Of a stretch of DNA of 34,005 nucleotides, positions 1 through 21,016 are shown one piece after another. The notes beneath the pieces were generated by a model. That model did not search any database. It was not told the DNA's origin and saw only the letters and a list, made by a program, of their open reading frames with translations. Source of the stretch: Chromatiaceae bacterium (GTDB taxonomy: Bacteria; Pseudomonadota; Gammaproteobacteria; Chromatiales; Chromatiaceae); the NCBI GenBank assembly GCA_020851955.1, contig JADZBU010000135.1, positions 1 to 34,005 of the forward strand, read 5' to 3'. A program made the position numbers and the translations under genes. Each line of letters starts with the position of its first letter. Positions within the stretch are counted from its first letter, which is position 1.

Positions 1-3000
1 CTGGGCAATGGCAAGATCGTCGATGACCAGGGCGCCGGCGACCGGATATGCGGAAGTGCTCTTACCGGTGAGAAACTTCGGCTCGGCCTTGCCAACCCAT
101 TGCAGAGCCCCTTTGGCGGGACTGTGCAGATGAACCCTATGGGCCTCCAGCCTGAGCCATTCCGGCATGCAGTTCATGACCTCGGTGCCGCGCCTCTCGA
201 TGGCCTCCGTCACCTCGTTCGGGCGCAACACGCTGCGCATCAGCAGATGTTGGCCCGTGGGTTGCAGCCGAAGCAAGGGGTCCTGGCCCGTGGCATCGGC
301 CTGACCGAGCAACCGCAACAAGAGGGCGATGCCATTCGAGCTCAGGTCGTGCGCTGGGATTCGCGGGATGCGATCGATCGGTATCTGCTGACCGGATTCG
401 GTCATGAGCAGGCTCAAGGGACTCTCCAGATCGGTGCCGCCCTTGAGCTTGTATGCCGCCTCGATATCCTCGAAGGTCACCGACCATACCCGGTACTCGC
501 CCCGCAGCATCAGGGTGGCGCGCTTGCGGGCATCGTCCGCCAGGGACTGCTGGTGGAACTCCCAGCCGTCCACGAATACCGCAATCGGGCGCATCGGGCT
601 AGCGGACTTGGTGGCCGAGATCACAAAGTCGGGCTGACACAGGGTCTGTCCCGAGGATAGGTCCTCGATAGGCACCTGGGTGTCCACCCAGTATTTGCTG
701 GGACCGATCGTCAGCAGATAGGCGGTCTTACCCCCCTTGATGTCCTGGGTGACCTGCACGGCGGGAAATCTGGCATTGTCCGCATCCAGTTGTCCACCCA
801 ACGCCTTCAGAGCCGGCAGAAAGCGCCGCTCCAGCTCGGAGCCGAAGTCGGGATTGATATAGATCTCGGACAGGCATTTCACCTGCTTGCGTTGGAAGTT
901 GCCCTCGATCAGGGCATCGAGCATCTCCAGCGCGGCGGTGCGGGAGATGTGCCGGCGGTTCCGTCCCTGGCGGTAATGAAACACGCATTGGTAGCACCCG
1001 TCCATGTTGGGCCTGTCCTTGCATCCGCAATCCCGGATCACCGCATGGGCCGCGGCCAGAACCTCGGTCAGGGTATCCGCGTCTCCCGCCAGCAACTGCT
1101 GCAAATAGCCGGTGCCGCCGGGCACCGAGTCATAGATCAGGATATAGGACTTGCCGGAGCCGTCCCCGGAACCCGCCTCGGACATGGTCTCGAAGCGCAG
1201 GTGGTCCACCTTGCCGCCAAAGCGCTTACGCAGGCCCAGTTGCAGCGCCGACATGAAGGAATAGGTGGTGCGCTCACCGGCGCCGAACCCCTTGGGCACC
1301 ATGATGCGCAGGCACTCGGACTCGAACTGGCGGTACAAGAAGAGTCGGTCCAGCAGATGCTCGCTCCCCGTGGCGTGGCGGTCCGGGCAGTCCGGGGTGT
1401 GCTCCTGCCTGCGCCCTTCCTTGTGATTGTTGCCGCCGCTGGGCTGCACCATGCCGCAGCTCTTGCACAGGGAGAAGCCGGGCTTGGCGCTATCGTCACC
1501 GGCGATCAGCGTCGCAGGCTCCACGGCGCCCAGGGGTGCCCGCTGGCCGAGATTCAGGTCGTGAAAGGCCGCCTTGACGATGAACTCGAAACCATAGATG
1601 GCCTGGTCGGACTCCAGCGTCCAGGCGCTGCGCACGTCCTCGGTAGCGAAGTTCATCAACAGCCGGCGGACGTAGAACCGGGGGTTGCGGGCCTCGTCCG
1701 TCTCGGTGATCCGCGTCTTGTCCGCTCGCTTGATATTGGCGACGGCCCGGGTCAGACGCAACGCGGGCCGCACCTGGCTGCCGTCCGCCCAATGACTGTC
1801 GCCACAGTGGGGGCAGGTGTCCGACTTGGCCTCCGGCTCGGTGAGCGGGGTCAGGAAATGGCAGCTCGCGCAGAAGCGGTGCTCGGCCGGCGGCTCAAGG
1901 CTCATATCGATCTGGTCGATCTGGACCTTGCTCTTGTGGGCGAAGAAGGTGTTGCGGGGCGCAAACTCCGCCAGGGCCGCATGGGCGGGCCGGCTGTAGC
2001 GGTGGACCGGCACCGAATATTCCTCGCCGCTGGCCTTGGCGCCATGGATGATGGTGGTCAGCGCCACCCCTTCCTCGGGGAAGGCGTAGTTCGGCAACAG
2101 CCCGGCGTTGGTCATGGCCTCGAGCAGGTATTCGTTGTTGAGCTGCGCGATGCGCTGCCCCAGTCCGGCGCGCTCCTTTTCCAGCAGGTCGATCTCGGCC
2201 AGGGTCTGCTCGTCCTCGGGGCGCTTCTTGAGCCGGGCGACCTCGGCGCTAATGGCCTTGCGGCGTTTTTTCCAGGATTCGCGCTCCGCCTGGGTCTCCT
2301 CGAAAAAGGCCAGGAAACGGGCACGCAGGTTCTTCTGCTGTTCCGTCCCGGTAATGAAGGCCTCCAGCTTCGCCCGCGTCTCGGGGCGCAGTTCATCGCC
2401 CAGCATCCGGCAAAAGGCCTCGAAGAGGGCGGGCTCATTGCGGTTGACGAAATCCAGGTAGTTGAAGGGAAAGCGCCTGGTATCGCCATCCAGCTTCGCG
2501 ACCTGGTCGAGGGCCTCGCTCAACTTGTCCGGCAGGGCCGGGCTTTCCTCGGCGACCCAATGATCGAAGAAGAAGGCGTAGAGCTGGCGGCGCAGCACCT
2601 CGGCGGCATTCAGATAGATGGCCGGGGCCTCCACGTCGCCCTTCAGCATCTCCAGGGGATTGGCGAAGTAGTACTGATCGTGCCCGTCCGGGGAGGCATC
2701 GGCGATGGCGAACACCGCGGCATTGCCATCCCGGCGCCCGGCGCGGCCGACGCGCTGGATGAAATTGGCCGGGTTCGGCGGCACGCCTCCCAGCATTACG
2801 CTGGACAGGGAGCCGATGTTGATGCCCATCTCCAGGGTCGGCGTTGCCGAGAGCAGGTTCTCGAACCAGGGCTGCCAGGCCTCATCGGGGGCCATGAAGC
2901 GGTCCTGCAAGGCGATCCGCTCGTCCCGCTCTAGGAGCCCCGTGTGCTCATGGGCGATGACCCGGGTGACATCACCGCCCGCGAGTCGGGCATGCCACCA

Positions 3001-6000
3001 GTTTTCCCCGATCACGGACTCCGGCCGCAGGGTCTCACCAGGGCTGTTCCAGGCGGGCAGCCCGCTCAGGGCCTCCGCGGCGTCTTCCGGCACCCAGAAA
3101 GCCTGGGAGCCGGTGGGGGTGACCAGCCGGCGCAGGCCCCGATACAGGTTCAGCCGGCTCGGGACCAGGCCAAACACCCGTGCCCGGTTGCCCCTGTCCT
3201 CCAGTTGCACGAACCGCCCCAGGCCCGCCGCTGCGAGTGCCTTCAGCAGTTCCTCGTAGGCCAGGGTGACGATGCCGGGCGAGCACAGCGATAGGCCCAG
3301 GGCGAGCTGGGCCCAGCGGAGCAGCGGATTGCCGTCGCGCTCCTCCAGGTGCAGAAATCCGTACCGGCCCGCCTCACGGCTGACGAAACGCGGTGCCTCG
3401 GAGCGGCCACGATGGGGTATCCAGTGGCTGCGTGGCATGGCGAACTGGAACCGATCGAAATCACCCGTCTCCGCGACCTGCTCCAGCCCCAGGTGGAAGA
3501 TGGCCCCGGCCTGAATCAGCATCAGCACCGTACCCGTGGCCCAGAACAGCACCCCCTCCTCGGTCAGCGCCTCCAGCCCGCCCCCGGCCTGGCGCAGCTC
3601 GGGCGTCAGGGTCCGCGACACGGCCGACAGATCGGCCAGCGCCGGGAACAGCACGGCGATGCCGACCCGGCTCAAGGTCCGACCCCGGTCCGAACGGTGG
3701 GCCAGTTCCTCGATAGCGCGCCACTGCATGCGCTGGCCGAGCATCTCCGGCAGCCGCGAGCCGGTTGCCAGGTTGCCGCTGGCGGTGAGTTCCCGCCAGT
3801 CCCGCAGCCACTCCATGGTCGGCGGGATGAAGCGCGCGACGAAGTCCCGGGGGGACAAGGCCAAGGGGCTGGCCGGGTCCAGATAGCAGCGGCCGAGGGC
3901 GTCCAGGGCCTGATCCCAGGGCAGGACCGCGGGCAGCGTCGCCATGGCCTGGGCGAGGCCCGCGCGCACCAGGTAGCCCTCGGTCTTGGACTCGATGTAG
4001 CCGGCGCGGTGGGCGGCATCCTGCACCGAATCGGAGAAGAGAATCAGCTTCTTGTGATCATTGAGCGGTGCCGACCAGAGTCGCTCCACGGCGTGGGCCG
4101 CGAGGCTGGTGGTCTGGGCGCCGATGATGAGTTGGCCGCCGCGCTCGCCGCACACCGGGCAGGTATCGTCATGGATGGCGACCTCCCTTGCCTCGTGGCC
4201 GGCGTCGCCATCCCCCCGGAGCCGCAAGCCGCGGGTGGCGCAGGCCAGGTGCACCGGCAGCACGTCGTCGCTCTGGCAATGCGGGCACTGGGTGAGCTGC
4301 GGGTTCCCCAGATGGCCGCACTGACCGCACAGGGTGTGACTGAGCAAGGGCACCAGGGCACGCGGGCTCGCCCCCTCGGCCTCCGGCCGGGGATAAACGC
4401 GGGCGATGAAGGTATCCGGATAGCGGGCGAAGAAGCTGGCATAGATCTTCTCCGGGTCCTTCACCACCCGGCTGTCCTGGGGCTGCTTCAGGGTCAGCCA
4501 GCCGGTGGTGTGACAATGGCGGCACTGGACCAGCGGCAGGCGCAGCCGCTCGCGCTCACTCAGCACCGCGGCCTCGGAGCGCAGCTCGATCTCGGCGGGG
4601 TCGCGGCTGACGGTAGCCAGGACCCGGCGCAGCTCCTGCAGCCAGAGCTGAATGCGCAGGGTCACCAGGTGGCTCAGCTTCCCGACCGGGGTTTGCGCAT
4701 CCACCCGCTGCCCGGCATGGGGCGCCCGGGCCCAGGCTACCAGGGTCAGCAGGGCCCTGACCAAAGCCCTGGCCTCCGGCACCAGCCGGGCGCTCAGGGT
4801 GCGGTGGATCTTGTCCGCGATCTCGGCCACCGTGACCGGGGCCTGGGTGGCGGTCCGCAGCAGGGACTGAAACAGCAGATGCTTCTTCAGCTCCTCACCG
4901 AGCCGCACCCGGCCCAGCGGCGTGTCGATGCCGGCCAGCAGCGCCGCCAGGACCTCCGGGTCCGTGAAGAATGCCGGCAGAACCTGTGCCACGGCCTCCT
5001 GGGGCCGAGCGAAGGCCCGCGGGCGGATCGCCCGCAGCACCGTCTCATCGTCGGCAATCAGATGCTCCACCACCCGGTCGCCGATGAAGGCATCAAAGCC
5101 CTGACGGCGCTCGATGATCACTGCGTCTTCATCGAACGCCGTGGCAAAGATCTGACCGGCGTACTCCCGCAGCGGGCGGGTATCACTGGCGTCGCCCAGG
5201 GTGGCCGAGGTACCGATGCAGATCAGTCGCTGCGCGTCGCTGTGCAGGCGATGACGCAGGCGGCGGATCAGCATCGCCAGGTCCGTACCCTGGGCGCCGT
5301 CGAAGGTGTGCAGCTCGTCCACCACCAGGTAGCGCAGGGTATCCGGCCCGTTGCGGCGCCACAGGGGTTGATCCTTGGGCCGGATCAGGAGGAAATCCAG
5401 CATCTTGTAGTTGGTGAGCAGGATGTCCGGCGGATTGTCCCGCAGCACGTCCTTGTCGGTGATGACGTGCCCCGGCCCCATGGCGACGCTGTCCTGTTCG
5501 GGACTCTTGCCCGCCTTGCCGGGCTGGTACTTGGTTTTGCCGGAGCCGACGAAGAGCCCGGCGCGGATGCCAGCGAAGGCCGGCGTCGTGTGCACCAGTT
5601 CGGCGATACGCTTGGCCTGGTCGTCGGCCAGGGCGTTCATGGGATAGATGATGATGGCCTTGATGCCCGGCCTTTTATGGTGCCGCTCTCGGGCGGCGTG
5701 CTCCAGAATCGGGTAGAGAAAGCACTCGGTCTTGCCCGAGCCGGTGCCCGTGGCCACCAGGGTGGACACCTGCCGCACACCACAGCGCCGCCAGGCTTGT
5801 TCCTGATGGAGAAAGGCCGGGTGCTCGGTCTCGAAGCCGGGGAAGAAGCCCTTGCCCTGGGAGCCCGAGACAAAAGGCATGCCGAGCTGCACATAGGGCC
5901 CCTTGATCCAGCTCGGGTCCTCGATCAGACGGCGGACCCCGTCCCGGAACAGCTCGGTGGAGGGCTCGAACTGGGTGCGCAGGGTCTCGGCGACCCCACG

Positions 6001-6033
6001 GCGGACTTCATCCACGACCAGTGATGGCAGCAT
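1..6033 (-). CDS. Giant DEAD/DEAH-box helicase with DUF1998-type C-terminal region and Vsr/PD-(D/E)xK-like tail (DruE-like or DrmA-DrmB-like); partial, 3' end beyond window
   Basis: Manual minus-strand translation from ATG at 6033 (MLPSLVVDEVRRGVAETLRTQFEPSTELFRDG...) stays open to base 1 (2011 codons). Walker A ATGTGSGKTE (~5730-5760), DELH box VVDELHTFDGAQGTDLAM (~5300-5330), motif III GTSATLGD (~5190-5215), motif VI QRVGRAGRRDG (~2730-2765), DUF1998-like YDSVPGGTGYLQQLL and CGCKDRPNMDGCYQCVFHYRQ (~960-1140). Frame phase checked near 3885, 2133 and 3. Confidence 0.88.
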   Translation of the reverse strand, partial: MLPSLVVDEVRRGVAETLRTQFEPSTELFRDGVRRLIEDPSWIKGPYVQLGMPFVSGSQGKGFFPGFETEHPAFLHQEQAWRRCGVRQVSTLVATGTGSGKTECFLYPILEHAARERHHKRPGIKAIIIYPMNALADDQAKRIAELVHTTPAFAGIRAGLFVGSGKTKYQPGKAGKSPEQDSVAMGPGHVITDKDVLRDNPPDILLTNYKMLDFLLIRPKDQPLWRRNGPDTLRYLVVDELHTFDGAQGTDLAMLIRRLRHRLHSDAQRLICIGTSATLGDASDTRPLREYAGQIFATAFDEDAVIIERRQGFDAFIGDRVVEHLIADDETVLRAIRPRAFARPQEAVAQVLPAFFTDPEVLAALLAGIDTPLGRVRLGEELKKHLLFQSLLRTATQAPVTVAEIADKIHRTLSARLVPEARALVRALLTLVAWARAPHAGQRVDAQTPVGKLSHLVTLRIQLWLQELRRVLATVSRDPAEIELRSEAAVLSERERLRLPLVQCRHCHTTGWLTLKQPQDSRVVKDPEKIYASFFARYPDTFIARVYPRPEAEGASPRALVPLLSHTLCGQCGHLGNPQLTQCPHCQSDDVLPVHLACATRGLRLRGDGDAGHEAREVAIHDDTCPVCGERGGQLIIGAQTTSLAAHAVERLWSAPLNDHKKLILFSDSVQDAAHRAGYIESKTEGYLVRAGLAQAMATLPAVLPWDQALDALGRCYLDPASPLALSPRDFVARFIPPTMEWLRDWRELTASGNLATGSRLPEMLGQRMQWRAIEELAHRSDRGRTLSRVGIAVLFPALADLSAVSRTLTPELRQAGGGLEALTEEGVLFWATGTVLMLIQAGAIFHLGLEQVAETGDFDRFQFAMPRSHWIPHRGRSEAPRFVSREAGRYGFLHLEERDGNPLLRWAQLALGLSLCSPGIVTLAYEELLKALAAAGLGRFVQLEDRGNRARVFGLVPSRLNLYRGLRRLVTPTGSQAFWVPEDAAEALSGLPAWNSPGETLRPESVIGENWWHARLAGGDVTRVIAHEHTGLLERDERIALQDRFMAPDEAWQPWFENLLSATPTLEMGINIGSLSSVMLGGVPPNPANFIQRVGRAGRRDGNAAVFAIADASPDGHDQYYFANPLEMLKGDVEAPAIYLNAAEVLRRQLYAFFFDHWVAEESPALPDKLSEALDQVAKLDGDTRRFPFNYLDFVNRNEPALFEAFCRMLGDELRPETRAKLEAFITGTEQQKNLRARFLAFFEETQAERESWKKRRKAISAEVARLKKRPEDEQTLAEIDLLEKERAGLGQRIAQLNNEYLLEAMTNAGLLPNYAFPEEGVALTTIIHGAKASGEEYSVPVHRYSRPAHAALAEFAPRNTFFAHKSKVQIDQIDMSLEPPAEHRFCASCHFLTPLTEPEAKSDTCPHCGDSHWADGSQVRPALRLTRAVANIKRADKTRITETDEARNPRFYVRRLLMNFATEDVRSAWTLESDQAIYGFEFIVKAAFHDLNLGQRAPLGAVEPATLIAGDDSAKPGFSLCKSCGMVQPSGGNNHKEGRRQEHTPDCPDRHATGSEHLLDRLFLYRQFESECLRIMVPKGFGAGERTTYSFMSALQLGLRKRFGGKVDHLRFETMSEAGSGDGSGKSYILIYDSVPGGTGYLQQLLAGDADTLTEVLAAAHAVIRDCGCKDRPNMDGCYQCVFHYRQGRNRRHISRTAALEMLDALIEGNFQRKQVKCLSEIYINPDFGSELERRFLPALKALGGQLDADNARFPAVQVTQDIKGGKTAYLLTIGPSKYWVDTQVPIEDLSSGQTLCQPDFVISATKSASPMRPIAVFVDGWEFHQQSLADDARKRATLMLRGEYRVWSVTFEDIEAAYKLKGGTDLESPLSLLMTESGQQIPIDRIPRIPAHDLSSNGIALLLRLLGQADATGQDPLLRLQPTGQHLLMRSVLRPNEVTEAIERRGTEVMNCMPEWLRLEAHRVHLHSPAKGALQWVGKAEPKFLTGKSTSAYPVAGALVIDDLAIAQ

Positions 6034-6119: not shown

Positions 6120-6491
6120 TCATTCATCAGTCTCGATACCTGGCCGATGTTGATCCAGCCCATCTTGCAGACGTCGCGCCGCGGCTAGCAAGCGCGGTAC
6201 ATGCACGCTCGCGGCATCCCAGAGAATTTCGGTATCGAGACCGAAATACTGGTGCACGATGATGTCGCGTAAACCAGCCGCGCCGCGCCAGTTAACTGCC
6301 GGCTCCGTGTCGCGTAGCGACTGGGGAAGCTGCTTGGTCGCCTCTCCGATGATTAGCAGGCTGAACAGAATCGCCTGACGCAAGACTTCGTCTTGCTCGA
6401 AGCTGTCCAAGCTCTGATCGCGCAGAAGGCGCTCCACGCGATCGCCGTGCTCGAGGATGTCGGCCAGGAAGAGCCGCCAATCACGGGACAC
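6120..6491 (-). CDS. HEPN-domain (DUF86/HepT-like) RNase toxin
   Basis: 123 aa; RDIIVHQY matches the RX4HXY HEPN motif; start overlaps the end of the adjacent MNT gene. Confidence 0.88.
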   Translation of the reverse strand: MSRDWRLFLADILEHGDRVERLLRDQSLDSFEQDEVLRQAILFSLLIIGEATKQLPQSLRDTEPAVNWRGAAGLRDIIVHQYFGLDTEILWDAASVHVPRLLAAARRLQDGLDQHRPGIETDE

Positions 6492-6789
6492 GGATCAGAT
6501 CCTGCTCGACGCTGGCCCGCGCCAAGGGTTTCAAGCCGCGTTCGGTGACCAGATCCACCCGATGCCCCAGGGCCTGCTCCAGGTAGCTCTTCAGACCGAA
6601 ATAGCCGTCGAGCGTCCCCCGGCCGCGAAAGGCCACCAGCAGGTCGATATCGCTTTCGTCGCGCAGGGCATCGCGAGCGGCGGAGCCGAACAGCGCGATA
6701 CGCTCCACCGCGAAACGATCCCGCAACTCGGGCCGCAGCCGCCGGAGCTGTTCGAGAATGCTGTCGCGATTCACGCATCTTGCAGGCAT
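6481..6789 (-). CDS. MNT-type nucleotidyltransferase antitoxin (MntA-like)
   Basis: 102 aa; [15 protein letters not shown] matches GSX10DXD of minimal nucleotidyltransferases; its start overlaps the 3' end of the methylase gene. Confidence 0.88.
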
Positions 6790-9700
6790 GGCGTCACCTC
6801 GCTATCGGTCTTGGAAAAAAACGCCCAGGCGACCCGGTAGTCCTCCTCGCGGTTAGGGCGAACGAAGGGGGCCTGGTATTCGATGGTGCGCTGCACCGGG
6901 CCGCCGGGCAAGGTGTCGTCGGGGAAGGTCTTGGTGACGGTGCAGCCGGCAGGCAGGTCGCGCACCTCTTCCCAGCCCAGGGCGATGCCCTGCTCCCGCA
7001 GTTGCGTGGTCTGGAGCCCAAAGGAGATGCCGGCCCTGAGGTCGGCCTGACGGGCCTTGCGGGGCAGGCCGACGCCCACCAGGCCCTTGCTCGGGGTGAA
7101 GACGATGCGCCCGGTCTGGTCGTACCAGGTGTCGGCCTCATTCTGGCGCATCACCGGGAACTGAATCCGGTAGATGGTCAGCAGCTCATCCAGGGTCAGG
7201 CCCAGGGCCTGAGACACCAGGACGTCGATCTCCACCAAGGCCTGACGACGGGCGTAATCGGTGCGCAGGGCGCAGTGGCGTTGCCAGGTGGGGGTGATGT
7301 TGGCGAAGAAATTAGGGTCGAGCAGTGGGCTGTGGGTGGACCAGCGTTGTTGGCGAAATTCGGGTTGGTAGCAGGGTTTCCAGAGATCGCGATAATGTCG
7401 CGTTAGAGTTGATAGGCACAAAACTCTTATGCTTGTCTGAGCCGAAAAGTACCCGTTGGGAAATGCGAAATCGTCAAGAGATTGTTGTAGATTTGTCCGA
7501 CCGGACAGCTTGATGAAAAAATCAAAGATGATAGAAAGACACCCAGCGGCCATACCCAAAAGATGATCGGTTGATCGGAACAGATAGGTTCTAACGCCGT
7601 GGGTGTGCCCAGCTCCTCTAGGAATTACTGCGGAAACAAGTCCCTTTTCTGCTCCGATACTAATCATTGCTCGTGAGGCAAGGCGGAAGTATTCCGTCAC
7701 TCGCTTCCCTTGGGTTTCCTCCCCTTCCACCCAAGGCACCCTTGGCGTCCGGTCCGCATATTCGGCCGGCGAACAGTCGGGCACATAGTTGGTCCGCGGC
7801 AGATAATCGTCCGGCAATCGGGTCAGGTCGAGGCAATCGTAATGGCCTTTCTCGGTACAGACGGCGCGTGGGGTCTTGTAGGCCGGGTTGCCGACGAAGA
7901 AATGGGGGCCTGAGAGCACCCATTGACCGGGTTCGTCCGGAAAGCGGGTCTCGCGGCGGATGGTGCCATCTTTCTGTTGGTTGGTCTCATGCCACATCTC
8001 CAGTGAGAGGTATTCACCCTTGAGATCACCCAGCCGCCGGGGCTGCGCGGCAAACTTCTGCAACACACTTACTAACTCTTGGGTGTGTAGCGTCGGTAAC
8101 CGAGCCGCTAAGGCAGGAGTTCCTTCTACATCGTAGAGATTAGCGAACAAAGCCAATCGGTCTCTATCGACATGCACAATGCGGCTTGCGTGGCCACCCT
8201 CATTCCAGTCTTTACCGTTGTCGACTTTTATGCCGCCGACAGGCCCTTGGCCATCGTGGTGATAACTGGCATCGATCGTTTGAGCGGCAAATAGATTCGA
8301 GATGCTGTCGAAGCTTGGATCGGATCTGGACTGACACCGATAGATATTGATGCTGAATTTAACCCGATGCGCTATTGGGAAGAGCATCCGTTGGTTCTGA
8401 AACTGAAAATGGCCCCGCAACCTCGGATAAACCTCGGCCCGAAACGCCCCGCCCTTGGGATCGTCATAAAGCCCCTCCGGATGCAGAAACCCAGCCACAC
8501 CCTGCGCGTTACTCGCCATCCATGCCTGCGGCAGAAAGCACTTGTACAAATTGGTCTGCACGCCTTTAAGCAGCGGGTAGTTCTGCGCTGCGTTCAAAAA
8601 CGCCTGCATCCCCGCCTGCTCGCAGAACTCGTCGAGCCAGGGGCCCCGCATCTCGGGGCGCTCTGTAAAGATTGCCGCCCGGCTCTTCGCGAGGTCAGAC
8701 GCGCTCAACTTGCGGATGGCGATCTTGGGGTCCGCCTCGCCCAGGATGCCCTTCTCTTCCCATTCCACCTTGAGCCAAGGTGGGTTCCCGAGGATCAGAT
8801 CGAAGCCACCGCAGGCGCGGAAGATGTCCGCGAAGTTGAGCTCCCAATGGAAGAAGCGGAACCGGGATGCCAGGGCCTCCACCTGGATGACGCGGGGAAA
8901 GTGCTCGCGCAGGCGCTTGATGCGCAGCTCGCCATAACGATCGTGCAGGGTCTTCTCGGCGCCGGCCGCGACCAAGGGCAGTTGGCCCGGCTGGTCGTCA
9001 AACAGGGAGGGCTGGACCTCCGGGACCAGATACTGCCGTTCCACCTTGGCGGGCCTGGGGGCAAGGTCCAGCTCCCGCTGCTCGTCGATCTCCATGACGT
9101 TGCCTTCCAGGATGGCGCCGACCTCGGTGATCCATTGGGTGCGGGTCGGGAGGGCGTTGGCCTGGGCGAGGGGCCAGAACCAGAGGGCGCACCAGTAGTC
9201 CATCACCAGCTTGAGGCGGCGGTAGGGGGTGGCGGTGTCGCCGTCCTCGCTCAACATGCCAGCCTTGCGGGTGGCCTCCTTGCTGGCGCGGCTGCTGATG
9301 CAACCTGCATCGCTGTCGGGCCAGACCGGCAGCTTGTCCTCGGTGCGGGCGCGGTCCTGGGCCAACTGGTGGGCGTGCTCGGCCCAGAGGGCGTCGATCT
9401 TGGCGCTGAGCTGCCGCAGACGCCGGATCTCCAGGTCGGAGAAGGGACCGAGCAGGGCCTTCTTCCAGGTCTTGACCCGGTCCAGCTCGGCGCCGAAGTA
9501 CTCCTTGACCGCCTTGTTGGCGTAGTCGCACATCCCCGCGTCGGGGAGCAGGAAGTGATAGATCTCATCGATCCGGCGCGGCTCGGCTAGGTTCAGGCGA
9601 CGGGGGACGGCGTGGAGCCAGCACTCGGGGTTGGGGACCGACTTGCCGTCCGGTCCCCTGAGGTTTCTCGGGGCGTTGAGCTGGTACGCCCGGAACACCT

Positions 9701-11858
9701 GGGGACGGGCGCCCACCAGGGAGTTGCCGGTGAAGAGCTGATAGCCGAACCAGGGCACCCGGGCCGGCTTGGGGCGGCCCTGCTCGTCGCTCTCGCCATA
9801 GATGGCGTTGAGCCAGATGCTGACCTCGGCCAGCTCGGTGGCGATGGGGTTCAGGTCCACCCCGAAGACGTTGGCGTCGGCCAGGCGCATCCGGACCTTC
9901 TGCAGCTCCTGGGGGTACTGGTCGTGGGGGATGCGGCGCTTGAGCTCCTGCTGCTTGCGCGTGAGATACGCCTCGGCGAGCTGGTTGACCGCCTCGTTCA
10001 CGAAGGCCGCGCTGCCGATGGCGGACTCGAGGACGCGAATGGTGAGGATCTCGTCGGCGGTCTTGCCCTCCAGCAGCTCCTTGAGGGCATATTTCACCAG
10101 GCACTGGGTCAGGGACTGGGGGGTGTAGTAGCTGGCGCTCTTCTGGCGGTCGCGCCCGGCGAGGCGATAGATGAAGGTGCCCTTGGGATAGAGCCGCAGT
10201 TCCTTGCGGCCTTCGGCGTTGGTGAAGGTGACCTTTTCGCCATTCTTGTAGTCGCCGATCTTATCCCGGGTGACGAACCAGCCGTTGCCCAGCAGGTCCG
10301 TGGTGCCGCCGTAGGCCTCCTCGCTCACGCTCCCCTCCTCGCCCTCGCCGGTCTCGTCGTCGTCCGCCTCGGTGGTCGGCTCCTTGGCCGCCGGCATCAC
10401 CTCGTACAGGTCCTCGGCGGCGAAGAAGCCGCGGTAGGACAGCAGGGCCTCGTAAACCGCCCCCAACTGGTTGATGGAGAGGGCCTGGTAGCTCACCCGG
10501 CGGGTGCGCCGGGTCTTGGGGTCCTTTGCGAAGGAGAGGCCGCGCAGCACCGCCTGCCAGAGGTGGTTGGGGAAGCGCACCTTGTTGAGCAGGGGCGTGC
10601 TGGCGGGGTCGAACAGGCGGCTGTCGAGCGGCGCCAGCTCGAAGGCGTTGAGGGTCGCCGAGCCGGTCAGGACCGGCTGCGCCCGGTGGCGGTTGGGGGC
10701 GGTCCCCGCGGCCACCAGGTTGAAGAGCTTCCTGAGGGTCTGGTCGAAATAGCCGCCCTGTTGGGCTTGGGTGGTGTGCAGGTTGGTGAGGGTGAGGTCG
10801 CGCAGGTGCTCCAGGCTGTAGCCGCGGGTGTAAACGTCGCTCCGATTGATGGGGACGTAGCCCAGCTCGGGGCGGGCCTCGATGTAGAAGAGGAAGATGA
10901 GCCGGTAAACCAGGCGCACGCACTCGGTGCTGAGCTGGCCGGCGTTCAGGGGTTTGAGGGTGCCGGTGTAGCTGTAGCCGTGCTCCTGGATCAATTGTCG
11001 CGCCGCCTCGTTGCCCAGCAGCTCGATGGCGTCGCGGAGGGCATATTTGAGGTCTTCGCTGACCCCGGCATCGTGCTTGTGGGATTCGGCGTCCAGGGTG
11101 TCGAGCAAGCCCTCACCCGCGTCGGGACAGAGGGCCTCCCGATGCAGCAGGGCGTAGCTGGCGTTGAGGGCGGCGGGCGGCTTCTTGCCGAGGATCTCCG
11201 TCAGGTCGAAGCGCAGGAAACGGTTGGCGGGCCACTTGAAGCGGTCGATCAGGAGCCACTCGACCTCGCCGATCAGGAGCACGAAGCGCGGCGGGTGATC
11301 GGCGGCGAACAGGGCGTCGGAGAGGATCTCCGCCAGGGGGCGTGGGGTCTTCCTGCCCTTGGCGATATAGGCCGCCGGGACTTCCTGGATGCCGAAGTGC
11401 CGCGCATCCAGGGTGGCATCGAGGGGGTCGGTGGTCTGCTCTGGTTGCCGGGGCCGCTGGTCGGGATTGAAGGCGGGCAGGACGATCACCTCCAGCAGGC
11501 CGGCGGTCTTGCCCACCCGGGCCCAGAGGGGGAGCGGCTGGCCGCCGATCCATTCCTGCTCCTCGGGAGCGATGACGTAGCCGAGTTCCCGCAGCAGGTC
11601 GCGGTGCAGGTCCTGGTGCCATTGCACCTGGGCGGCGAAATCCTCATTCGCGGGGTAGCGGGCCAGGTGCTGAAAGAAGGGGGCGGCGAGGCGTGCCAGG
11701 CGCTTGGCGGGCGGATCGGCTTCCGCCTCGCTTCCGGCGCGCTGTTGCAGCCAATCCTTGATCCGGGCCTGAAAGACATGGGCGAAGAAGTGGTGGCTGT
11801 AGAACTCGTTCTCGTTGACGACGCCCGGGAAGACGTCGAATTTTTCCGTGATTTCCAT
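6771..11858 (-). CDS. Large Eco57I-type N6-adenine DNA methylase, DrmMI-like (class 1 DISARM)
   Basis: ~1695 aa from [12 protein letters not shown] (ATG at 11858, AGGA upstream). Motif I-like [45 protein letters not shown]; motif [21 protein letters not shown]. Starts 13 bp after the SNF2 gene stop. Confidence 0.85.
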
Positions 11859-11871
11859 CGCTGATCCTGGA

Positions 11872-14739
11872 CTAAGGCTGCGCCGTAACGCCGGCGAGCA
11901 CTTGCACGAAGGGCACGGGCTCCACCTCAAGGCTGTCCTTGACCCATTGGCCGTACTCGGTGAAGACGTCCTCGATGTCTTTCATGCGCTGCGCCCGGCG
12001 CCCCGACCGGATGGTGTCTAGCACCTTGGCCAGGCGCAGTTCCAATTGACGCTCCTGGGCACCGCGCAGCTCGTCCAATTCCGCAAGCCGATGTTTCACC
12101 TCCTCGGCGCGGGCGGCGCTGAAGCGCTTGACCTGGTCTTCGACGTGCAACTGCATGGTGGCGACGGCGTCGCCCAGGGCTTGTTGCAGCGGCGTCAGGT
12201 CCAGGGGGCGGCGGGCGTTGGGCAGACCGCGTTCGGTCATACCGGCGCGGGCGCAGAAGGCGTCGAAGTCTTCGATCACATAGTCCTCCCCCCGGCGGCG
12301 GACGACCGCCTGCCACTCGGCGATCAGTGGCTGGCCCTTGCGGTTGGGGATCAGGCCCAGCATCAGAAAGGCGCATTCGTCCGCCGCAAGACGCGGGCTG
12401 GTGATGACCGGGGCGCGCCGGCGGCCCAGGGTGCCGATGACCCGGTCGATCAGCCACTGGCAGATGGGGTGCTGGGGCCAGAGAAACTGGATGTCGGGCC
12501 AGGTGGCGCCTTGCCGATCCTGCTCCCGGACCCGCTGGATGGATTCCTCGACCAAGCCGGGGAGCGCGGAGAGCACATACTCGTCGGTCTCGCGCAGCAC
12601 CTCGGCGGGCAGTTGGCGGCGCAGCCGTCGGCGCAGGTCGGCGGGCGGGGTGAGGCGCAGCATGCGGGCCTGGTCGTCGATGCGGTAGCCCTCCGCCTCG
12701 GGAACTCTGGCGATGGCCTGCTTGGCAAAGGCATGGATATCCGGGAAGAAGCGGTGGGGCTCCGGGAGGACGGCGGCCGGGGGCGCCTCTGGCACCGTGC
12801 CGAACAGGGCCGTCTCCCAATCATCCTCGTCGTCCCGCGCCGCGGCCTGCTCGATACAGTCCCGCTCGAATTGCTCTGCGCTCATGCGGCTGGCCAGCGC
12901 CTCGGCCACCACCACTTCCTCTTCCTCGATGCTGTGCTTGCGCAGGATGGAGGCGGGATCGCCGATGTTGCGGCTGATCTGCTCGTCCTTGCGCACCAGG
13001 ACCTCGATGACGCGCAGGTCGCCTTTGACTGTCTCGATCTCGGATGCGGTCAACAGATAGTCGATGCGCGGGGTCTGGTCCTGGCCAAAGCGGTCCACCC
13101 GGCCGTTGCGCTGCTGGAACACCATGGGCGACCAGGGCAGGTCGAAGTGGACCAACCGATGACAGAAGTAGTGGAGGTTCAGCCCCTCCGAGGCCACATC
13201 GGAGCACAGCAGGACCCGCAGACTGTCGTGCTCCTGGCCGAAGCGTTCGACGATCTCCTGCTGGTCGATGTCGGAGAGGCCGCCGTCCAGGAGGGTGAAG
13301 GCCTCCTCTTTCAGGCGCAGGTCACCCGGGAGCCTGGACATGAGCCACTTCAGGGTCTCGATGCGCTCGGAGAAGATGACCAGCCGGTCTTTGCTGTCCT
13401 TTCCCGTCCATTGGGCCTCGGGGTCGCGGAGCGCGGTCAGCAGCCGCTGGTACTTGCTGAAGCCGTCCGGAGTGATGCCTGCCAGGGTCTGCAACAGGGC
13501 CTGGAAGGCGGAAATCTCATCCTGCTCCGCCCCTGACGGCGCTGGGCCGCGGCGCAACTTGTCGATGCGGTTGCGGGCGTAGCCGATGGCCGCGGCGGGG
13601 CTGGAGAAGAGGGCCTTTTGCAGGCCGACGCGTTGCAGCTCAGACTGCTTGCCGTGGGCGCGCTCTCCTTTCTGGGTGAAGGGGATCGCCAGGACCGCTT
13701 GGAAGGCGGTTTCTTCCTGGGGCGTGGCCCGGGCGGACAGCCGGCGGGTCACGGGATCCAGGAACTGGCCCTGGGCCTGCCCCTTGATGTCCTTCTTGAA
13801 GCGGCGCACGAAGAGGTCCTTGCGGTCCAGGTCCGCGCGGCTGTAGTCGTCCGGATCGGAGATGGCGGTGGGGTCCAGCAGCCAGATCAGGGAGGCAAAG
13901 CTGTTAGCCGAGCCATCGTGGGGGGTGGCCGAGAGCAGGATGAGGGTGTCGGACTTGGTGGCGAGGTTCTTGGCCAGCCGCGCCCGCAGGGAGGAACCCG
14001 AGTCGCCCTTCCGGACGGCGACGTTCTGGCATTCGTCGATGACGATCAGGTCCCAGCGGGACTTGTCCAGGTAGTTGCGGTATTCGTTGTTCCCCTTCAG
14101 GGTGTCCATCGAGATGATGGTCTTGTCGTAGTAGTTGAAGGGGTTGTGCCCGGACGGGATGTTGTTGCGGATGCGCTGGATGCCCGCGGAGTCGAGTCGC
14201 ACCAACGGGATAGTGAAGCGGGACCACCACTCCTTCTGAAACTGAGTCAGCATGCTCTTCTGGGTCACCACCAGGATGCGGCGGCCCCGCCCGCGGATGT
14301 CCAACTCGGTGGCCAGCATGGCGGCCTCCAGCGTCTTACCCAGGCCGACGCCATCCGCGATCAGGATGCGGGTGCGCACCTGCTTGAGCCCCTTCTCCGC
14401 CGGCACCCGCTGGTAGTCGGCGCGCTTCATCACCGCCTGGTGGGCGCGGTGAATGTGCTGATCGTTGGCGACCGTGCGCAGGCGCTGGCTTTCGAGATAC
14501 AGCAGGCTGTCGGTGAAGTAGTCGCTGGTGTCCTGGAACAGCTCGGTTTGAGCGGGGTCGTGGACCTGGATGTCGTCTTCGAGCCGGTCGAGGAAGATGG
14601 CCGAGGTGCCTCGCACCAGTTCGGACAGGCCATCGCAGGTCAAGGCGTGGCCGCCGTCGTCGCTCAAGTCGATGTGGCGGATGACCCAGTCCTCATCCCG
14701 AACGGTGACGCGTGCCCCCGGTGCAAATCCGCGATGCAT
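11872..14739 (-). CDS. SNF2-family helicase/ATPase, DrmD-like
   Basis: Walker [21 protein letters not shown]-position [10 protein letters not shown], motif [19 protein letters not shown], motif [24 protein letters not shown]. Likely start [11 protein letters not shown] at 14739 after AGGACTGGAA; the track extends to 14760. Confidence 0.87.
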
Positions 14740-15014
14740 TTCCAGTCCTGTTTCCTTCACGCTCTAGGGATGGCTAAGAGGCATAAGCGGGGCTATCCAT
14801 GGAAACAATCCTGCCAAACCGCGAGGGGCAAGAGGTTCCTGAAGCAGTAATGAGGTACAGGCGAAAACTGACTGGGTAATCCCCTCTGCCTGCGCAGCCG
14901 ATCTTACACTGATGCCTTGGGCCCTTCCTGGCCAATTTCCGGCCCGGGGTTGTCAGGATCGGGCCCTGGTCCGGACCGCACACCATGATGCCAGTTGCTC
15001 ACGGCATCCCAGCC

Positions 15015-19725: not shown

Positions 19726-20799
19726 TCACCTGACCAAGGCAAGCGTAATCACCAGGCCACTGGCCATCAGATAAAAACCGAACAACAAGCCGCCACCCCA
19801 CCGGTCAGCCTTGACCGAGGCCGCCATATCCGTTGCCTTTTCATGGCCGAGTTTGGTGATGTAGATCAGCAGCGCAATGACGGCAATGCAATACACATAA
19901 GCGTACAGATAGAGGGTGTCGAGCAAGGTCAGGTACTCCACGGTCGGCAGATCTTCACCCACCGTGATCTGCAACGCCACAATCGAGAAGATTGAAAAAA
20001 TGGCAATCTGAAAACGTGAATCCACCAATTTTGGGCTGAGCAAAAACACAAAAGAACAGCAGATGGTGGTCAGCAGAATAGGCAAGACGTTTTTCACAAC
20101 GGCATTGATGATCGGGCGTGTGATCCGCAGCTCAATGGATACGCGGGAATAGGAACTGCCCTGGTCCACCCGTGTATCGCCAAAATTGGTCGGATGGGTG
20201 TAGTCGTAACTTTGCATCGTGGCTGGTTTGTATTGGAATCCGGGCAATTTGAGCTCAGGATTCACACCGATGCTGTCAACCACATATTTTTGCCCAAGCG
20301 TGTCGCGTACCGCATCTTCGATCTCGATGCTGATGCTCTGCTTGTCAAAGGGGTAGTTGCGCAGGTCAAGCTTGCGGCTCATCCGGCCCTCCACATGAAT
20401 GACCTGATACAACTGCCCATCTGGCAACACCTCCGGCTCTTCATAAGACTTAGTGATGACGGTGCCCCAGGATTCCGAGTGGTTGACAAATTCAAGGGAG
20501 CTGGAGGGGTCGATATCCGGGTTTTTCCAGCGAAACCACAGGTAAAAATCAACCATGTAATTGTGATTCTTGAGGTCTATGGCCTGTACGTCGTTGAGGT
20601 AGGCCCCCATCATCACCACGTCGGGTTCGCCAATTTTCTTGACGCTGATGCTGGCCTTTGAAGCATCCTCAGGCTCCATCAGGGTCTCGGCCAACGCCAT
20701 GCCGCTAAGCCCAGTCAACCCAACCAGACATCCACCAACCAACATCACACAGGCAAGTGTCGCCATCCAGCAGGCCGGACGCTTGATCATCGAGGTCAT
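19726..20799 (-). CDS. Prokaryotic pentameric ligand-gated ion channel (Cys-loop receptor-like, GLIC/ELIC-related)
   Basis: 357 aa from MTSMIKRPACW. Signal-like N-terminus, NYPFDKQSISIEIEDAV (Pro-loop region), then RITRPIINAVVKNVLPILLTTICCSFVFLLSPKLVDSRFQIAIFSIFSIVALQITVGEDLPTVEYLTLLDTLYLYAYVYC and a C-terminal TM helix. Confidence 0.87.
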   Translation of the reverse strand: MTSMIKRPACWMATLACVMLVGGCLVGLTGLSGMALAETLMEPEDASKASISVKKIGEPDVVMMGAYLNDVQAIDLKNHNYMVDFYLWFRWKNPDIDPSSSLEFVNHSESWGTVITKSYEEPEVLPDGQLYQVIHVEGRMSRKLDLRNYPFDKQSISIEIEDAVRDTLGQKYVVDSIGVNPELKLPGFQYKPATMQSYDYTHPTNFGDTRVDQGSSYSRVSIELRITRPIINAVVKNVLPILLTTICCSFVFLLSPKLVDSRFQIAIFSIFSIVALQITVGEDLPTVEYLTLLDTLYLYAYVYCIAVIALLIYITKLGHEKATDMAASVKADRWGGGLLFGFYLMASGLVITLALVR

Positions 20800-20922
20800 G
20801 TCAACACTCCATGGAAAGCAGGATTGGATGGCCTGATTCTGTCGCACACCAGCTTTCAGGCACCCATTGCCCGTCCCAGTCCCCTTCCCGCGCCAGCGCA
20901 AGGTAGGTCTCCAGGTGCCGCT

Positions 20923-21016
20923 AGCCTTTGGTGGGGACGCGGTAGAGGGGGGATTATAAAGACTCCCGGCCTGACTTGCCGGCGTCACGCCCCGGCCAGG
21001 CGCATCCCAGCCCAAA
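20923..21016. repeat. Right copy of the ~95-bp direct repeat (fumarase promoter region)
   Basis: AGCCTTTGGTGGGGACGCGGTAGAGGGGGGATTATAAAGACTCCCGGCCTGACTTGCCGGCGTCACGCCCCGGCCAGGCGCATCCCAGCCCAAA; minus strand keeps TATAAT at 20953-20958, facing the pLGIC gene. Confidence 0.9.

Follow-up and report, generated by a model that had tools for sequence, protein, structure and literature searches.

A predicted Vsr-type nuclease domain in the C-terminal part of the giant helicase ArmC of an ARMADA type II operon from a Chromatiaceae bacterium

The long reading frame at the left end of the analysed DNA very probably encodes the YprA-family helicase ArmC, part of an ARMADA type II operon, with a C-terminal Vsr-type nuclease domain of the PD-(D/E)xK superfamily. 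The stretch analysed (the window, 34,005 nucleotides) is the entire contig C135 of a 4.26 Mb draft genome in 475 contigs, and ArmC is therefore truncated. The initial annotation had placed a Vsr/PD-(D/E)xK-like segment after the DUF1998 region of a giant helicase, and conservation, profile alignment with hhalign and the predicted fold all bear this out. A Vsr domain at the end of ArmC was already described in a 2025 preprint, so that the locus is a further example of a known system.

In the list of open reading frames, the minus-strand frame runs from position 6033 to the left contig end, 2011 codons without a stop. It matches the Pfam families DEAD (1.6e-21), Helicase_C (8.4e-8) and MZB (8.5e-13), placing the RecA-type helicase domains and MZB/DUF1998 together in a single ORF. 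Relatives of this ArmC in other Chromatiaceae (Lamprocystis, Thiorhodococcus, Thiohalocapsa, Halochromatium) are 74-86% identical to it and, in the alignment, extend about 150 residues past the end of the window's contig. Some 45 residues separate the MZB/DUF1998 match from the Vsr-type segment, whose peptide NPDFGSELERRF...TFEDIEAAY comprises ArmC residues 1727-1861 (minus strand, window bases 451-855), in agreement with the span of 440-860 originally assigned to it. The features are collected in Table 1.

Table 1. Features of the ARMADA type II operon in the window.
Feature	Position in window	Strand	Remarks
Start of ArmC C-terminal extension	1..378	-	Alignment; relatives' version ends in a tail related to the ZorE C-terminus
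armC, YprA/DruE-type SF2 helicase	1..6033	-	2011 aa in window, C-terminus cut by contig end
Vsr-type PD-(D/E)xK-like nuclease domain of ArmC (predicted)	379..888	-	aa 1716-1885
Catalytic candidate R1838	520-522	-	Invariant in 26 relatives
Catalytic candidate D1834	532-534	-	Invariant in 26 relatives
Catalytic candidate H1827	553-555	-	Invariant in 26 relatives
Catalytic candidate D1822	568-570	-	Invariant in 26 relatives
Catalytic candidate D1802	628-630	-	Invariant in 26 relatives
Catalytic candidate E1735	829-831	-	Invariant in 26 relatives
MZB (DUF1998) zinc-binding domain of ArmC	982..1254	-	Pfam PF09369, aa 1594-1684, 8.5e-13
HepT-like ribonuclease toxin, accessory, between armB and armC	6120..6491	-	PF01934 2.1e-25
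MntA-like nucleotidyltransferase (antitoxin), accessory, between armB and armC	6481..6789	-	PF01909 2.4e-14
armB, PglX/type IIG-like DNA methyltransferase	6774..11930	-	1719 aa; Eco57I 1.1e-10; PADLOC REase_MTase_IIG, DrmMI
armA, SNF2/BrxHII/RapA-like helicase	11875..14760	-	962 aa; SNF2-rel_dom, Helicase_C; DrmD-like below NCBIfam cut-off

A profile of the domain recovers relatives, located at the equivalent position of other giant helicases (E about 1e-75 to 5e-22), which puts the Vsr-type segment far beyond chance. We compared 26 domain sequences, drawn from close relatives, six additional genomes of the class, the window genome's own second copy and further genomes of the phylum and the family, with identity to the window down to about 25%. 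Twelve columns are invariant throughout: S1732, L1734, E1735, G1768, D1802, F1803, D1822, G1823, H1827, D1834, R1838 and W1850. The residues singled out beforehand as catalytic candidates (the E of SELE, the D of QPDF, and the D and H of VDGWEFH) are among them, as E1735, D1802, D1822 and H1827, and the clustered acidic and basic residues expected at the predicted active site are present and fixed in all 26 sequences. The SELE glutamate needs to be specified, as only the second E (E1735) is fixed while the first varies (SVLE in some relatives). In the PD motif, the proline is replaced by alanine or valine in some relatives.

The label attached to the domain rests on profile comparison. Aligned with hhalign, the domain profile matches MTES_1575 (PF18741) with 91% probability and Vsr (PF03852) with 62%, whereas neighbouring segments used as controls stay below 4%. 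In this register the PDF and VFVDG...H motifs of the domain lie opposite PDL/PDF and VFVHGCFWH of Vsr. The DUF559 model also aligns in register, yet with a probability of only 2.7%, and DUF559 was not taken up as a label. Pfam assigns MTES_1575 to one relative (7.7e-4) and nothing to the Vsr-type segment of the window protein. Compared with the Vsr and MTES_1575 nucleases, then, the ArmC domain shares the PDF and VFVxG...H motifs, but it is fused to a giant helicase, has DG where Vsr has HG, carries a longer beta region ahead of the PD motif and, in the window protein, falls short of Pfam significance.

Searching PDB sequences with a profile of the C-terminal region returned chance matches only; a fold comparison was therefore needed. 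The AlphaFold2 model of the domain (pLDDT 75, pTM 0.73) contains a helix (18-30), strands (44-70, 88-92, 102-106), a second helix (109-129) and a last strand (133-137). These elements follow one another as in the superfamily (a helix, three strands, two more strands, a helix and a strand), and the model includes the alpha-beta-beta-beta-alpha-beta core of the restriction-endonuclease-like fold, as the initial annotation had anticipated. A model of the complete C-terminus of a relative (L005, pLDDT 82) shows the same structural elements. The top three Foldseek matches of the domain model in the PDB are all TnsA (probability 0.97, 0.84 and 0.77; best E 2.3e-3), with E-values that are modest, none reaching 1e-3; weaker matches include the restriction enzyme PaqCI and VRR_NUC proteins. 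Searching with the whole C-terminus of 472 residues gave nothing significant, so the fold check succeeded for the isolated domain and not for the full region. TnsA (PDB 1f1z, 1t0f) thus offers the best fold match and a PD-(D/E)xK endonuclease core; it acts in Tn7 transposition, has the canonical catalytic lysine and shows no sequence match to the ArmC domain.

The alternative that survives best, although we consider it unlikely, is that the Vsr fold has degenerated and lost catalysis, being retained to bind DNA or to keep the complex together. Druantia I and II carry dead Vsr domains at the same place, and further dead domains often follow it in ARMADA II ArmC (PMC12458937). The canonical acidic residue and the catalytic lysine of the (D/E)xK motif are indeed absent from the window's domain, which has VFVDG at this position; two distant relatives have VIELDG or VIEMDG, with the usual acidic residue. 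However, Vsr itself departs from the canonical motif (VFVHG), and the altered positions are those altered in Vsr too. The Vsr-type D, H and acidic helix residue are kept (E1735, D1802, H1827 and D1834 being invariant), and invariance of the candidate catalytic residues down to about 25% identity would not be expected for a dead domain. As read from the alignment, the pattern D ... [FE]xDG...H ... D...R is that of a Vsr-type active site, and we infer that the ArmC domain of the window is an active nuclease.

The assignment to ARMADA type II follows from the operon. Upstream of armC and in the same direction lie armA and armB, whose products are 43% identical (ArmA) and 47% identical over 1722 aligned columns (ArmB) to those of E. 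coli, while ArmC reaches 34.5% over 1904 aligned columns. The E. coli reference copy belongs, as the published one does, to an array of the order Zorya II - Druantia III - ARMADA II, and the numbering of K110 and D234 in its ArmC equals that of the experimentally tested protein (PMC12458937). ARMADA is defined by this gene set, with a strict armA-armB-armC-armD order in type II, ArmD being a RelE-GajB-like fusion (PMC12458937). The contig of the window stops inside armC, and an armD search across the assembly found only that of a second copy on another contig (C366). In relatives, armD stands next to armC in 9/9 close relatives and 15/15 further loci, the A-B-C-D order is kept at every locus whose contig reaches (15 further genome stretches), and the gene after armC encodes a UvrD helicase; ArmD of one relative (L005) is 40% identical to that of E. 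coli. ArmC of E. coli ARMADA II (NCTC 12900, ATCC 8739; PMC12458937) combines the same YprA helicase, DUF1998 and C-terminal Vsr domain, in the same armA-armB-armC order, with matching active-site residues E1689, D1748, D1768 and H1773. The two loci differ between armB and armC, which are separated by a MntA-HepT pair in the window and have no gap in E. coli.

A Druantia system, with DruE in the window and its partners lost or located elsewhere, is very improbable. DruE1 (3.5e-110) and DruE3 are the best PADLOC matches of the ArmC frame, but E. coli ArmC receives the same DruE matches, because the PADLOC library (2023) predates ARMADA. In addition, the window protein aligns over its full length with E. 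coli ArmC and only in pieces with E. coli DruE, and its neighbours are ArmA and ArmB rather than DruH, DruABCD or DruMFG. Druantia membership was rejected on this gene content.

The reading with the least support, held to be extremely unlikely, is a DISARM variant whose helicase acquired its own nuclease in place of DrmC: ArmA and ArmB do match the DrmD and DrmMI models, and DISARM class 1 also has a methylase and a SNF2 helicase, but DrmA and DrmB are expected as separate genes where the window has helicase and DUF1998 in one 2011-aa ORF, PADLOC scores DruE at 3.5e-110 against 9.5e-15 for DrmA, the DrmD score of 333 bits lies below the cut-off of 610, and relatives have ArmD, not DrmC. The two systems have relatives of the SNF2 helicase and the PglX-like methylase in common; DISARM splits DrmA from DrmB and keeps its nuclease, DrmC, as a separate PLD protein, which was not found in the window operon. 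DISARM membership was rejected on gene content, and with it the original framing, since helicase and DUF1998 form one polypeptide, DruE models are closest and the operon is that of ARMADA type II. The fused nuclease had been set against the presumed reliance of DISARM on DrmC; this contrast sets two different systems apart, because ARMADA II is described as normally having a Vsr domain, predicted to be active, fused to its helicase (PMC12458937).

For ARMADA type II, then, published work provides the functional frame. According to Bell et al. 2025 (PMC12458937), ArmC of ARMADA I and II carries at its C-terminus a Vsr nuclease predicted to be active. E. coli ARMADA systems protect against phage; ARMADA II blocks the phage without killing the cell, and this requires all four genes and the ArmC ATPase (PMC12458937). 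Only the ATPase motifs of ArmC were mutated (PMC12458937), and we found no nuclease mutant of ArmC in the ARMADA literature examined.

A mechanism can be proposed by analogy with DruE of Druantia type III, a helicase-nuclease effector with the same YprA core, MZB and a C-terminal nuclease. DruE binds 3' overhangs through its helicase channel and cleaves long DNA, with its nuclease domains held at the periphery (PMC13192584). The analogy covers the helicase only, because the nuclease of DruE is a PLD and not a Vsr domain; its partner is DruH, and identity to ArmC is about 24-32%, in pieces only. ArmC would act like DruE with Vsr in place of PLD: its helicase core and DUF1998 canopy, as in the solved DruE structure, would take hold of invader DNA that is single-stranded or 3'-tailed and exposed; ArmC would then translocate and pass the DNA, unwound or distorted, to the tethered Vsr domain for nicking or cutting. 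The ArmB methylase would presumably either label the cell's own DNA or sense modification, while ArmA and ArmD may be further DNA motors. In this way phage DNA would be removed directly and the cell would not have to kill itself.

The armB-armC junction varies between ARMADA II loci. Both genes are visible at 19 ARMADA II loci, a small sample in which seven loci are close relatives and gene ends come from BLAST matches; armB and armC are separated by roughly 0.7 to 4.7 kb in 14/19 and by less than 50 bp in 5/19, and the armA-armB spacing never exceeds about 80 bp. The inserts are often toxin-antitoxin genes and differ between loci: MntA-HepT (window), PIN and Fic (L005), MNT and HepT-like, by eye (L007), DUF3368 and Fic/Doc (L008), GmrSD_N (L010), BrnT (L011), nucleotidyltransferase, HEPN and a weak PIN (L013), UPF0175 and DUF3368 (L096), MqsA-like and DUF4258 (L101), PIN (L103), and unrelated genes (L092, L098), with no clear gene at L089. 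The main text of PMC12458937 does not mention HepT, and a narrow literature search found nothing on it. Because the sample is small and seven loci are close relatives, these varied inserts are a lead only. That the boundary is a dedicated slot for toxin-antitoxin modules working with the helicase-nuclease, a core operon with an exchangeable suicide module, appears improbable; if true, the module could for example serve as a guard, killing the cell upon a block of ARMADA or breakage of its mRNA.

The tail of ArmC drew a separate observation. Its last ~85 residues (aa 2021-2096 of E. coli ArmC, L014) show a relationship to the C-terminal end of ZorE, the nuclease of Zorya II: a PADLOC ZorE2 match occurs in the tail of 6/17 relatives (6e-11 at best), and hmmsearch, with Z set to 1000, relates E. 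coli ZorE (L088:12944-14047) to the ArmC tail at 4e-8. Zorya II and ARMADA II share defence islands, and the common tail is perhaps a docking or DNA-binding module. A second, dead Vsr domain has been described as the tail of some ArmC (Bell et al., PMC12458937); hhalign of the last 96 residues against Vsr, MTES_1575 and the active domain gave less than 4%, leaving a second dead Vsr unconfirmed by sequence.

Across genomes, the domain profile matches 8/399 drawn from the phylum and 3/96 of the family, a patchy distribution, as for mobile defence genes. The genome of the window holds a second, complete ARMADA II (contig C366, L089), with an ArmC about 42% identical, and two copies likewise occur in G814, a different genome of the family. 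Two more MZB-containing frames, one of 1983 aa, occur in the window's genome (C75, L003; C420, L004); that on C75 is only distantly related to ArmC. Outside the defence operon, window positions 19726-21015 (minus strand) show a weak pentameric ligand-gated ion channel match (LGIC_1, 5e-14), below the curated cut-off.

Taken together, the motif call was right, and the domain now finds its place in ARMADA, a system that received its name in 2025. Published work tested the ATPase motifs of ArmC only (PMC12458937), and a role of the Vsr active site in the cutting step of ARMADA becomes directly testable. Its setting here is the purple sulphur bacteria, where one genome can hold two copies of ARMADA II.
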